From positions 62,001 through 126,000 of the forward strand of contig CAJTDS010000003.1 of the NCBI GenBank assembly GCA_910575165.1: a stretch of 64,000 bases of DNA. The letters run 5' to 3'. Each line of letters starts with the position of its first letter. The stretch's first letter is position 1. A program made the translations under genes and the position numbers. The notes under the pieces are model-generated. The model saw nothing but the letters and a program-made list of their open reading frames with translations, was not told the origin of the DNA and ran no database searches. This document shows, one piece after another, positions 10,060-60,851 of the stretch. The stretch comes from Eggerthellaceae bacterium (GTDB lineage Bacteria > Actinomycetota > Coriobacteriia > Coriobacteriales > Eggerthellaceae).

Positions 10060-12687
10060 ATGGCGAAAGACGAGCAGCCCAACGAGCCCTTGGAGGCCAC
10101 CCCCGTGGAGCTGATTCCCGGCACCGACGTCGACCCTTGGGAGCCGGGCAGCTTGGGCTGGCTTCTGCCGTGGGCCGAAACCGGCGAGGGCGACCTTATG
10201 ACGGCCGACCAGGCTCTGGAAACCTTCTTGACCTGGGTGGAGGCCCGCGGCATTCAGCCGTGGCCCCATCAGGAGGATGCGCTGGTGGACCTGGCGGCGG
10301 GCGATCACGTGGTGCTGGGCACGCCTACGGGTTCGGGCAAGTCGCTCGTGGCAATGGGTCTGTGCTTCGTCGCCATGGCAACGGGCAAGCGCGCCTACTA
10401 CACGGCCCCCATCAAGGCGCTTGTGAGCGAGAAGTTCTTCGCCATGGTGGAGGTCATGGGCAAGGACAACGTGGGCATGCTCACTGGAGATGCCTCCATC
10501 AACCCGGATGCCCCCATCGTCTGCTGCACGGCCGAGATCCTGGCCAACATCGCCTTGGCCGAAGGGGAGGATGCTCGGGCGGACTGCGTGGTCATGGACG
10601 AGTTCCACTACTACGGCGAGCCGGATCGTGGCTGGGCTTGGCAGGTGCCGCTGCTCATTTTGAAGAAAGCCCAGTTCCTGCTGATGAGCGCCACGCTCGG
10701 CGACATGTCGGCCATCGCCGGCGCGCTGCAGGAGCGTACGGGCCGTTCGGTCGACCTGGTGCTTGACGCCCCGCGCCCGGTGCCCCTTTCCTTCGAATAC
10801 GCCACCACTTTTCTGGAAGCCACAGTCGAGCTTGCCCTGCGCGCCGGCGAGGAGCCGCTCTACGCGGTCCACTTCTCCCAAGACGAGGCGTTCGGTTCGG
10901 CCCAGAAGCTTTCGAACTTCGGCATAGCCACCAAAGAGCAGCGCGAGGGTATCAAGAAGGTCATGCGCGGCACGCGATTCACCACCCCCTTCGGCAAGGC
11001 ACTGCAGCGGTTGCTGCTGGCCGGCGTGGGCGTGCACCATGCGGGGATGCTTCCGCGCTATCGCCTGCTGGTGGAGAAGCTGGCGCAGAAGGGGCTGCTG
11101 TCGGTCATCTGCGGGACCGATACGCTGGGCGTGGGCATCAACGTGCCCATCCATACCGTGGTGTTCACGAGCCTGGCGAAGTTCGACGGCGTGAAGCAGC
11201 GCCGGCTGCGGGCGCGCGAGTTCCACCAGATCGCGGGCAGGGCGGGCCGTTCTGGCTTCGACACCGAAGGCGTGGTCATCGCCGAGGCCCCCGACCACGA
11301 GATCGCCAACCTGAAGGCTGTGGAGAAAGCGGGGGGCGACCCCAAGAAGCTGCGGAAGGTGAAGAAGAAGCAACCGCCCGAGGGTTTCGTCAGCTGGTCG
11401 GAGAAGACCTTCGAGCGTTTGGTGGAGGCGCAGCCGGAAACGCTGGTCCCCCGCATGAAGATGACCCACGGCATGGTGCTCGGCGTGGTGGGTCGCGGCG
11501 GGGATGCGCGCGCCAACGTGCAGGAGCTCATTGACGAGTCCGCCCAGACGCCGGAGGAGAAGGCGGCGCTTTCCCAGCGCGCCGACGAGATCTTCAAAAC
11601 GCTCGTCGACACCGACGTCGTGGTGATAGGCGAGGACGAGGCGGGCAACCCGGACTATCGCCTGACCGTTGAGCTGCCGGAAGACTTCGCGCTGGACCAG
11701 CCGCTTTCCCCGTTTCTGCTCAGTGCGCTGGCATTGTTCTCGCCCGACGAGCCGAACTACGCGCTGGACGTGATATCGCTGGTGGAGGCTACGCTCGAGG
11801 ACCCGCGCCAAGTGCTGCGCGCCCAGCAGCGCAAAGCCCGCGACCGCGCCATGGCCCAGATGAAGGCCGACGGGGTCGACTACGAGGAGCGCCTGGAGCG
11901 CTTGCGGGAAGTCACCTACCCGCGCCCGCTGGAAGACGAGCTCGATGCCGCCTTCGAGCTGTACTGCAAAGAGGTTCCCTGGGCGCGCGACTTCCAACTC
12001 ATGCCGAAGTCGGTGCTGCGCGACATGGTGGAGACGGCGGCCGACTTCAAGACCTACGTGAACACCTACGGTATCGCTCGCTCGGAGGGCACGCTGCTGC
12101 GCTACCTGTCCGACGCCTACCGCGTGTTGGAGAAGACGGTGCCGCCCGCCGCCCGCGACGAGCAGCTGGAGGAAATCGTCGATTGGCTTGGCCTTTTGGT
12201 GCGCACCACCGACTCGTCCCTGGTGGACGAGTGGGCGCGCGCAGGTCAGCTTCCCGAAGCCGACGTTGCCGGGTTCGGCGCCGAGGACGCCGTGGTGCGC
12301 GATCGCCGCGGCATGGAGCTGATGGTGCGAAACGCCCTGTTCACGCGTGTGAAGCTGATCGCTGCCGACAAAGCCGATGCGCTGGGCGCCCTCGACGAGG
12401 ACTGGGGGTACGGCGCGCGGAAGTGGGGCCAGGTGCTGGATGACTTCTACGACGCCCACGCCGATGCGCGCATCGACGCCGACGCCCGGTCGAAGCAGTA
12501 CGTGCTGCTGGACACCGCCCGGGAAGAGGTCGACCACACCTGGCATGTGCGCCAGATCGTGCTGGACACCGAAGGGGACTGCGACTTCTGCATCGACGCC
12601 GACGTGGACTTGGACGCCTCCCAGGAGGAAGGCGAGGTGGTGTTCGCGAACTATCGCGCCGCGTTCGCGGACGAACTGGGCGAATAG
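10060..12687 (+). CDS. Ski2-like DEAD/DEAH-box helicase (DUF3516 type)
   Basis: 875 aa. Motif I GTPTGSGKS near residue 87, motif II DEFH near residue 178, motif III SATLGDMS and motif VI QIAGRAGRSGFD define a superfamily 2 Ski2-like helicase. The C-terminal 400 residues match the actinobacterial DUF3516 extension. Members are presumed RNA helicases involved in RNA turnover. The start has only a weak ribosome binding site (GAGCAGAAG). It is followed within 18 bp by the first copy of an unusual core-plus-arms hairpin, then by convergent proC. Confidence 0.9.
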   Translation: MAKDEQPNEPLEATPVELIPGTDVDPWEPGSLGWLLPWAETGEGDLMTADQALETFLTWVEARGIQPWPHQEDALVDLAAGDHVVLGTPTGSGKSLVAMGLCFVAMATGKRAYYTAPIKALVSEKFFAMVEVMGKDNVGMLTGDASINPDAPIVCCTAEILANIALAEGEDARADCVVMDEFHYYGEPDRGWAWQVPLLILKKAQFLLMSATLGDMSAIAGALQERTGRSVDLVLDAPRPVPLSFEYATTFLEATVELALRAGEEPLYAVHFSQDEAFGSAQKLSNFGIATKEQREGIKKVMRGTRFTTPFGKALQRLLLAGVGVHHAGMLPRYRLLVEKLAQKGLLSVICGTDTLGVGINVPIHTVVFTSLAKFDGVKQRRLRAREFHQIAGRAGRSGFDTEGVVIAEAPDHEIANLKAVEKAGGDPKKLRKVKKKQPPEGFVSWSEKTFERLVEAQPETLVPRMKMTHGMVLGVVGRGGDARANVQELIDESAQTPEEKAALSQRADEIFKTLVDTDVVVIGEDEAGNPDYRLTVELPEDFALDQPLSPFLLSALALFSPDEPNYALDVISLVEATLEDPRQVLRAQQRKARDRAMAQMKADGVDYEERLERLREVTYPRPLEDELDAAFELYCKEVPWARDFQLMPKSVLRDMVETAADFKTYVNTYGIARSEGTLLRYLSDAYRVLEKTVPPAARDEQLEEIVDWLGLLVRTTDSSLVDEWARAGQLPEADVAGFGAEDAVVRDRRGMELMVRNALFTRVKLIAADKADALGALDEDWGYGARKWGQVLDDFYDAHADARIDADARSKQYVLLDTAREEVDHTWHVRQIVLDTEGDCDFCIDADVDLDASQEEGEVVFANYRAAFADELGE

Positions 12688-12704
12688 AGCTCGGCTGCTT
12701 CGGG

Positions 12705-12803
12705 CTTCGGCCGAAGGATCCGTCGCTTGTCCTCGCTCGCGCGGGTGCTGCGGCTCGCCGCTTCTCGCCGCTGCGGAATCGCTCCTTGACCCTTCGGCCG
12801 AAG
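12705..12803 (+). repeat. core-plus-arms hairpin element, copy 1
   Basis: Perfect 13-bp arms (CTTCGGCCGAAGG at 12705-12717, complement at 12791-12803) enclose a 73-nt core. The core holds CGCTTGTCCTCGCTCG near its 5' end and GCTGCGGAATCGCTC near its 3' end. It starts 18 bp after the helicase stop. There is no T-tract after it, so it is not a plain intrinsic terminator. Confidence 0.8.
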
Positions 12804-12837
12804 CTCTCCGCTGCTTGCTGGCGCCCTGGCCGCTTCG

Positions 12838-12940
12838 GCGCGGTCGGGAAAGGCGCGTTGCTTGTCCTCGCTCGCGCGGGTGTTGCGGGTTGCTCCTCTT
12901 TGCCGCTGCGGAATCGCTCCTTAGCCTTTCCCGACCGCGC
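12838..12940 (+). repeat. core-plus-arms hairpin element, copy 2
   Basis: Arms are a perfect 17-bp inverted repeat (GCGCGGTCGGGAAAGGC at 12838-12854, complement at 12924-12940), unrelated in sequence to the arms of copy 1. The enclosed core (69 nt) is nearly the same as in copy 1 over both conserved blocks. It lies 34 bp downstream of copy 1 and 32 bp before the convergent proC stop. Confidence 0.8.
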
Positions 12941-12972
12941 CTGCGCTACCTGCGGGCTGTGCTCCCGCTGCT

Positions 12973-13767
12973 TTAGAGTTGCTTCGACTTTTGGACGCAG
13001 GCGTCGATGGCGTCCATGACGGCGCCGCGAAAGCCCGCTTCTTCCAGCACGCGCACGCCCTCGATGGTGGTGCCGCCGGGGGAGCATACCATGTCCTTCA
13101 GCTCGCCGGGGTGCTTGCCGCTTTCCAGCACCAGCTTCGCGCTGCCCAGAAGCGATTGGGCGGCGAACTCGTAGGATTGGGCGCGGGGCATGCCCGCAGC
13201 TACGGCGCCGTCGGCCAAGGCCTCGATGAACATGAAGGCGAAGGCCGGCGAGCTGCCGCCCACGGCGCCTTCCGCGTCCATGAGCCGCTCGGGGATGGCG
13301 ATGGCCCGGCCGAAGCTGCCCATGAGCTGCAGGCAGAGGGCCTCGTCGTCGGGCTGCGCGTTCGGTCCGGCGCAGACAGCGGTGCAGCCGGCCCCCACGA
13401 GCGCTGGCGTGTTCGGCATGCAGCGCACCAGGCGCACCGGGTGGCCGAACAGCTCTTCGATGCGCTGGCAGGTAAGCCCCGCGGCGATGCTCACCACCAG
13501 CTTGTCGCTGGCCGTGCTGGTGACTACTTCGTCAATGACCTGGGGGAAGAACACCGGTTTCACCGCCAGGATCAGCACGTCGGCGGCATTGGCAACTTCG
13601 ACGTTCGAAAGCGAGGCGTCTATCCCGAAGCGCTCTTGCATGCGGGCGCGGGTTTCCCGGGTCTTCGCCGAGCCCACGATGTCCGCAGGCGTCGCGATGC
13701 CCGACTCCAGCAAGCCGCCGATGATGGCCGCTGCCATGTTCCCCAACCCGATGAACCCTATTTTCAT
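12973..13767 (-). CDS. proC: pyrroline-5-carboxylate reductase
   Basis: 264 aa. It has the N-terminal NAD(P)-binding motif GFIGLGNMAAAIIGG and the C-terminal ProC signature (SSPAFAFMFIEALADGAVAAG, shown in part; then LKDMVCSPGGTTIEGV). The enzyme makes the last step of proline synthesis. Length is normal. It is a single gene with its own promoter (TACAAT at 13801-13806) and converges with the helicase gene and its two hairpin elements. Confidence 0.96.
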   Translation of the reverse strand: MKIGFIGLGNMAAAIIGGLLESGIATPADIVGSAKTRETRARMQERFGIDASLSNVEVANAADVLILAVKPVFFPQVIDEVVTSTASDKLVVSIAAGLTCQRIEELFGHPVRLVRCMPNTPALVGAGCTAVCAGPNAQPDDEALCLQLMGSFGRAIAIPERLMDAEGAVGGSSPAFAFMFIEALADGAVAAGMPRAQSYEFAAQSLLGSAKLVLESGKHPGELKDMVCSPGGTTIEGVRVLEEAGFRGAVMDAIDACVQKSKQL

Positions 13768-31985: not shown

Positions 31986-32100
31986 GGCGCCCGTGGGCGG
32001 CGCAGTGCACCTTCGCTTGTCCTCGCCCGCTCGGGTGTGGGGTTTGCGGCTTTTCGCTGCTGCGGAATCGCTCAGGTGCACCGTGCCGCCCACGGGCGCC
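31986..32100 (+). repeat. core-plus-arms hairpin element, copy 3
   Basis: 27-nt arms (31986-32012 and 32074-32100, 25 of 27 complementary) enclose a 61-nt core. The core carries CGCTTGTCCTCGC and GCTGCGGAATCGCTC, as at 12.7 and 12.8 kb, but the arms (GGCGCCCGTGGGCGGC...) are different. It begins 23 bp after the ATPase stop, in the same orientation as the gene. Confidence 0.8.
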
Positions 32101-48382: not shown

Positions 48383-48428
48383 GTAGCGAAGGCGGCGCAG
48401 TCCTCGATGGCTGCGCCGCCTTCGCTAC
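48383..48428. terminator. strong bidirectional hairpin between reductase and methyltransferase
   Basis: An 18-bp perfect stem (GTAGCGAAGGCGGCGCAG and complement) with a 10-nt loop TCCTCGATGG. The inner stem and loop match the hairpin at 44767-44794. Confidence 0.8.
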
Positions 48429-49363: not shown

Positions 49364-49470
49364 GGCCCGAAGGACAGGGGTCCACGCGCAGTTCCGCACG
49401 AGGGCAGAACGCGAAGCGTTCGGTGCCCGAGCTCAGGACTGTTCGAGTATGGACTCCTGTCCTTCGGGCC
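49364..49470 (-). repeat. probable diverged core-plus-arms hairpin element (copy 4)
   Basis: Arms of 20 nt (49364-49383 and 49451-49470, 19 complementary with one G-T pair) enclose a 67-nt core. On the minus strand the core shares GTCCT, GCTCGGG and TGCGGAAC with the cores at 12.7-12.9 and 32.0 kb in the same order. It starts 24 bp after the DUF1385 stop, in the same orientation as that gene. Confidence 0.55.
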
Positions 49471-57445: not shown

Positions 57446-57505
57446 ACAGTGCACGGGGGCTGGGTTCCGCAGGAATTCCCGCAGAACCCAGCCCCCGTGC
57501 ACTGT
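57446..57505. repeat. 60-bp palindromic element, copy A
   Basis: Perfect 21-bp arms (57446-57466 and 57485-57505, beginning ACAGTGCACGGGGGCTGGG) with an 18-nt centre CCGCAGGAATTCCCGCAG. It lies in the convergent gap of mdh and the RNA methyltransferase gene and is followed by TTTTT on the plus strand, so it may act as a terminator. Confidence 0.85.
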
Positions 57506-59264: not shown

Positions 59265-59324
59265 ACAGTGCACGGGAGAGGGGTTCTGCGTAAAATCCTG
59301 CGGAACCCCTCTCCCGTGCACTGT
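59265..59324. repeat. 60-bp palindromic element, copy B
   Basis: Perfect 21-bp arms (59265-59285 and 59304-59324) around CTGCGTAAAATCCTGCGG. Outer 11 bp (ACAGTGCACGG) match copy A; the next four bases differ (AGAG versus GGCT) with matching change in the other arm. Confidence 0.85.
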
Positions 59325-60791: not shown

Positions 60792-60851
60792 GCAGTGCAT
60801 GGGGGCGGGGTTGTGCGGCGATTCGTGCAGAACCCCGCCCCCGTGCACTGC
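60792..60851. repeat. 60-bp palindromic element, copy C
   Basis: 21-bp arms (60792-60812 and 60831-60851, one G-T mismatch) around GTGCGGCGATTCGTGCAG, 31 bp after the nuclease-like gene stop. Confidence 0.85.

Follow-up and report, generated by a model that had tools for sequence, protein, structure and literature searches.

Palindromic repeats of Coriobacteriia with a conserved two-box motif and variable, self-matched stems

Two tandem hairpins and their surroundings

The window analysed here (the whole stretch of DNA, 64,000 nucleotides in length) contains two tandem hairpins that lie between a gene for a DEAD-box helicase and the convergent downstream gene proC, together with a third copy of the same element elsewhere. 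The relevant features, in window coordinates, are as follows.

10060-12687, + strand: DEAD-box helicase with DUF3516 (PF00270, PF12029), the upstream gene
12704-12720, + strand: copy 1 left arm, pairing with 12788-12804 (94% over 17 nt; outer 14 bp perfect)
12729-12736, + strand: copy 1 box 1, GTCCTCGC, invariant across a 33-row alignment
12770-12782, + strand: copy 1 box 2, GCTGCGGAATCGC, near-invariant across the 33-row alignment
12788-12804, + strand: copy 1 right arm, the partner of 12704-12720
12837-12854, + strand: copy 2 left arm, 18 nt, 100% complementary to 12924-12941
12864-12871, + strand: copy 2 box 1, GTCCTCGC
12905-12917, + strand: copy 2 box 2, GCTGCGGAATCGC
12924-12941, + strand: copy 2 right arm, the partner of 12837-12854
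12973-13767, - strand: proC, pyrroline-5-carboxylate reductase (PF14748, PF03807), the convergent downstream gene
31986-32100, + strand: third copy, with 16-bp outer arms (31986-32001 and 32085-32100), 8-bp inner arms (GTGCACCT/AGGTGCAC) and a core from about 32015 to 32073 (G000:C3:94015-94073)

The stop codon of the helicase gene lies 16 nt ahead of copy 1. The block enclosed by the arms is 84% identical between copies 1 and 2 over 75 nt, and the two core blocks have chance expectations in the window of 0.04 and 0.00; a search of the window with them led to the third, diverged copy at 32015, the arms of which differ from those of copies 1 and 2. Both tandem copies out-fold all of 200 shuffles on either strand, with z scores for copies 1 and 2, respectively, of -3.4 and -4.9 on the + strand, and of -4.6 and -4.9 on the - strand. 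An initial, sequence-only reading had described the arms of the two copies as self-complementary and unrelated to one another. The complementarity (94% and 100%) is clear, whereas 'unrelated' goes too far, since the arms can be aligned by eye (CGGCC-GAAGG versus CGGTCGGGAAAGG) and so seem to be related sequences that have diverged, a change in one arm being compensated in the other, rather than wholly unrelated ones.

The same reading held that the hairpins are not ordinary terminators, and this view stands; there is no T-tract 3' of copies 1 and 2, unlike the situation with intrinsic terminators, which combine a GC-rich hairpin with a U-tract, and at another locus (L050:4722) a copy is located right behind a true intrinsic terminator. 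The 64-kb window has 13 inverted repeats in total (arms of at least 12 bp, loops of up to 150), three of which are the two-box copies. Inverted repeats without the boxes are present at 48383-48428 (18-bp arms, loop of 10) and at 49364-49470 (15-bp arms, loop of 77). The window also contains members of another hairpin family (57446-57505, 59265-59324 and 60801-60842), with the outer stem ACAGTGCACGGG, a mid-stem that varies yet self-matches, and a partly conserved loop (TGCGG..ATT..GCA).

Anatomy, distribution and pairing of the family

A search for the core in the genome and its relatives, as had been proposed, gave at least 16 copies in the source genome, with more in relatives; the same family is present in the deer-gut Eggerthellaceae G117 and G125, which match the records Roe_deer RGIG4359 and Red_deer_4_mag_31, respectively, in coordinates and sequence. 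All copies have in common the box pair GTCCTCGC...GCTGCGGAA, or close variants thereof, with GTCCTCGC on the 5' side and GCTGCGGAA on the 3' side. From the outside in, a variable outer stem of about 15-40 bp is followed by the two near-fixed boxes, which form an internal loop on folding, then by a variable inner stem or loop. Covariance-model matches (E <= 1e-4) occur in 13 of the 138 genomes of the family search. A core-pattern scan of all genomes also matches proteins of other phyla, mostly by chance, and these matches, which lack stems, were used as the negative control.

The class also has a sister form, AGTCCTCGC...GCTGCGGAACT, in 58 of the 398 genomes, representing 31 of 153 genera, the reversed pattern, used as a control, giving 0 matches in each of the genomes listed. 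Genus g2 has 10-42 sister-form copies per genome; overall, copy number per genome in these draft assemblies (G117 carries 9% contamination) is patchy, ranging from 0 to 42. Both forms have the blocks GTCCTCGC and GCTGCGGAA and, in the deer genomes, the single outer frame TGTCCGC...GCTACGCTCTTCCGCTT, from which we infer that they are versions of the same element.

No autonomous versions, i.e. with an open reading frame between the boxes, were found. Rfam 15 gave no match above the gathering score for the window region and 11 loci; the matches up to an E value of 0.1 were solely to sub-threshold microRNA models, and that to MIR842 (48.7 bits, where the cutoff is 85) is an artefact of long hairpins. 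No description of these repeats in Coriobacteriia was found in the open-access literature, which is weak evidence for novelty, and we know of no bacterial family with these boxes. The best reading is that the repeats constitute an undescribed palindromic family with a conserved two-box motif.

The pairing of the arms is a general property, rather than one of the window copies. Arms are self-complementary in 63 of the 70 copies collected, their median length being 26 bp and the longest perfect one measuring 41 bp, and they differ between copies, so that elsewhere they are neither generally unpaired nor always the same. With 20-nt arms from 43 copies, 18.0 positions are paired within a copy versus 11.1 between copies. 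Covariation of the arms, the examination of which had also been proposed, is apparent in the 33-row alignment, where 82.3% of cells are paired versus 57.7% on shuffling and 39-56% on sliding, and where there are 144 double changes versus 49, with shuffles that treat the copies as independent, i.e. that ignore their relatedness. In a 40-copy alignment of the sister form from genus g2, double changes occur at 22 of 33 pairs, and both inner and outer helices covary, flanking two invariant strands. The 70 copies and the 40-copy alignment thus bear out the early description of a conserved core with variable, self-matched stems.

Arm identity and core identity are uncorrelated (Mantel r ~0), on which basis stepwise descent of arms together with cores was rejected. 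Within one lineage, copies have the inner arm motif GGGRAGGGGT in common, as well as the outer boxes. The arms of one tandem pair (C2:179 kb) are near-identical. At a further site (L044, G000:C15:8300-8560) the core and right flank are tandemly duplicated and the second copy has no matching left arm, which implies that arms are not always corrected.

Insertion sites, nesting and turnover of arms

Gene context was taken from codon-position GC, and the gene calls are approximate; on this basis many copies start 8-38 nt 3' of a stop codon, merely 2-3 of about 41 copies are in divergent gaps, and the orientation of the element relative to flanking genes is roughly symmetric (12 '++', 10 '--'). Dispersed copies have unrelated flanks. 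Some copies are in frame within genes. In birA of the source genome, one follows the KWPND motif, where two congeners have a short loop instead, the arms being absent too, as far as 75% identity permits; in hypF, one is within the YrdC-type domain in three species of another family; and at an ABC-ATPase gene start, the copy is in frame where read through.

The comparison of orthologous loci for empty sites, another of the early proposals, was productive. Four sites filled in G125 have neither the core nor either arm in the ~90% identical relative G117, which shows, for these sites, that the arms come with the element and not from the target. At three of the four, the same slot in G117 holds a different palindrome, ATGAGT..CAGGACGTTCC. 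The empty-site junctions are too diverged, or filled by another palindrome, to define a target-site duplication. Palindromes of a family with conserved arms and variable loops, AATGAGTnnCAGGACGTTCCTGnnACTCATT, are located at L267, L268 and L269 of G117, in the same intergenic slots as the two-box element of G125.

Several sites are common to species of one genus, and an element between mqnA and a CofH/MqnC-type radical SAM gene is present in different families of the class (L386, L387, L392), so mobility is not recent everywhere. In two genera (L172 and L205) the element is beside a homologous right-hand gene (73% identity), either through shared ancestry or repeated insertion. In three species of genus g2 (L460, L471, L476) pairs of elements face each other, about 134 nt apart and with related flanks, and this facing pair looks conserved in position; similar spacing also occurs in G007 and G028. 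No transposase or recombinase moving the elements was identified. A Y1 transposase was considered as the mover and rejected, because PF01797 has no match in the source genome (E <= 1e-6) and does not track with the element across the family, with matches in 69 of the 138 genomes of the family and none in high-copy ones, G001-G004 among them.

Palindromes can be nested. In G117, members of a TTGAACGT..ACCCC palindrome family are repeatedly found inside the loops of two-box elements, and half-copies at contig ends contain, at one site, a palindrome of another family within the loop. The outer boxes TGTCCGC...GCTACGC also bound two hairpins that have no core, at L059 6198 and L383 1474. The nesting and the core-less hairpins leave room for insertion into palindrome centres in some events. 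Very long perfect palindromes are usually unstable in bacteria; deer-gut Eggerthellaceae have several, each with a loop of 3 (L115:5507-5609, 50-bp arms; L122:3261-3341, 39-bp arms; L050:7030-7088, 28-bp arms), which belong to sequence families other than the two-box element.

Arms also differ between genomes where the site is fixed. G125 and G117 have the element in common 3' of one gene (L074/L121), with flanks that are 94% identical; the middle of the arms consists of a different block in each (GGGGCC versus CGCCTGTTGGCGGT), which is matched within its own copy, possibly by an independent second insertion at a preferred site instead of turnover. The ABC-ATPase site is common to five congeneric species with flanks ~87-90% identical; the arms differ in each of the five, all are self-matched, and one of the species has the core in the reverse orientation at this position. 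According to PMC8604942 (related reports, PMC8794818 and PMC7202029), template switching between inverted repeats homogenises the arms and inverts the spacer, and the multi-base changes on both arms at once and the loop inversion fit these reported outcomes.

Possible explanations and related systems

The reading that we favour, as a probable though far from certain one, is that these are dispersed mobile-type palindromic repeats of the gut bacteria Coriobacteriia, the arms of which are homogenised by copying at the DNA level and which are spread by a putative enzyme. Copies are inserted for the most part directly 3' of stop codons, and in some cases in frame within genes. From the sequence comparisons we infer that one arm may be repeatedly copied onto the other at the DNA level, so keeping the stems complementary, most likely through template switching by the polymerase or through repair of cruciforms, and this would also account for in-place inversion. 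The boxes would be conserved since something, most likely the putative spreading enzyme, recognises them in the folded hairpin; their near-fixed nature across the class could, instead, reflect a host function.

Selection on folding had been suggested at the outset, and folding itself is supported. It is unlikely, in our view, that the elements are cis-acting RNAs at transcript ends, terminator-like or 3'-protective, with a protein on the internal loop and selection pairing both stems, even though the frequent location shortly after stop codons and rarity in divergent gaps (on rough gene calls), the way in which the two stems covary while the internal loop between them stays fixed, a classic RNA signature, and the terminator-like inner hairpins of several class members, e.g. 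AAGAAAGCCCTCGCGGGCTTTTTT, are as such a role would predict. A selected RNA should tolerate G-U pairs far more than A-C pairs. The stems of the first set (1668 positions) have 22 G-U, 35 A-C and 1564 Watson-Crick pairs, and those of the sister form 4 G-U, 16 A-C and 844 Watson-Crick pairs, i.e. when pooled on the core strand, 26 G-U versus 51 A-C. The A-C excess equates to G-U on the opposite strand, yet the ratio is just 2:1, which is short of the usual wobble tolerance and far from RNA-like. As G-U wobble is not favoured over A-C, complementarity seems to be kept at the DNA level, and the RNA part of the early suggestion is disfavoured; the in-frame copies inside birA and hypF, the roughly symmetric orientation, the window copies without a T-tract, and the lack of an Rfam family match likewise argue against an RNA role.

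The early suggestion that a mobile core (of ~55 nt) enters the loops of pre-existing palindromes, such that the arms belong to the target, gains a little from the two core-less hairpins, from the repeated presence of TTGAACGT..ACCCC palindromes inside core loops, and from the absence of correlation between arm and core identity. It is, however, quite improbable, given that both arms are missing at the four empty sites, as well as in the birA congeners within the limit set by 75% identity, and that GGGRAGGGGT and the outer boxes are common to the copies of one lineage, so the arms travel with the element. Segmental duplication of a non-mobile element, followed by independent compensatory mutation of the copies, can be regarded as very improbable: tandem duplication does occur (the C2:179 kb pair, and that at C15:8.4 kb, where the second copy lost its left arm), but the copies are dispersed with unrelated flanks, are in frame within genes, and are missing at orthologous sites in relatives, and multi-base replacements have occurred on both arms together between flanks that are 94% identical.

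The favoured reading, of mobile-type repeats with homogenised arms, can be compared with known systems. Rickettsia palindromic elements (RPEs) are palindromic repeats of ~100-150 nt, present between genes and in frame inside protein genes, with copies that are related over their whole length. The two-box element is similar, as compared by description, in being also in frame in coding genes (birA, hypF and the ABC-ATPase start), but differs in that only the two boxes are fixed, with stems that vary by copy, and in coming from a different phylum. MITEs have terminal repeats common to all copies of a family, because the transposase reads them. Like MITEs, the two-box element is small, non-coding and dispersed, with inverted-repeat ends; by contrast, its inverted repeats differ per copy (11.1/20 between versus 18.0/20 within) and the conserved part is internal, terminal sequence being shared between copies solely as short outer boxes in one genus. 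Closest in spirit, likened by description alone, are the double-hairpin elements of fungal and algal mitochondria, i.e. mobile hairpins of organelle genomes in which the stems vary and the fold persists.

The REP, REPIN and BIME elements are likewise multi-copy extragenic palindromes, often near gene ends and with lineage-specific subfamilies. REPs are 20-40 bp long with a family-specific conserved end tag, according to PMC3733652, whereas the two-box element exceeds 100 nt and its stems are free in sequence; unlike elements of these types that are moved by RAYT (Y1) enzymes, it has no accompanying Y1 transposase match in the source genome. Inverted repeats homogenised by template switching (quasipalindrome correction) match with respect to the arm changes and in-place inversion, but template switching is a mutational process that acts on any inverted repeat, and leaves the conserved boxes and the dispersal unexplained.

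It may be, although we consider this broader proposal rather doubtful, that the boxes are the recognition site of a putative Coriobacteriia-wide enzyme whose action on DNA hairpins depends on their structure, and which would move, invert and nest palindromes with any stem sequence; the long perfect palindromes of other families would then be products of the same system. In the two-box element the usual design of small mobile palindromes is inverted, in that it is the interior that is conserved and the inverted repeats that are free to vary. DNA-level covariation of this type can pass for a conserved RNA, the missing G-U wobble being the tell-tale. As the repeats number tens per genome, occur at orthologous sites of differing divergence and include examples inverted in place, they provide a natural record from which the copying, perfecting and movement of palindromes in living bacteria can be measured, and one that is also useful in the search for the factor recognising the boxes.
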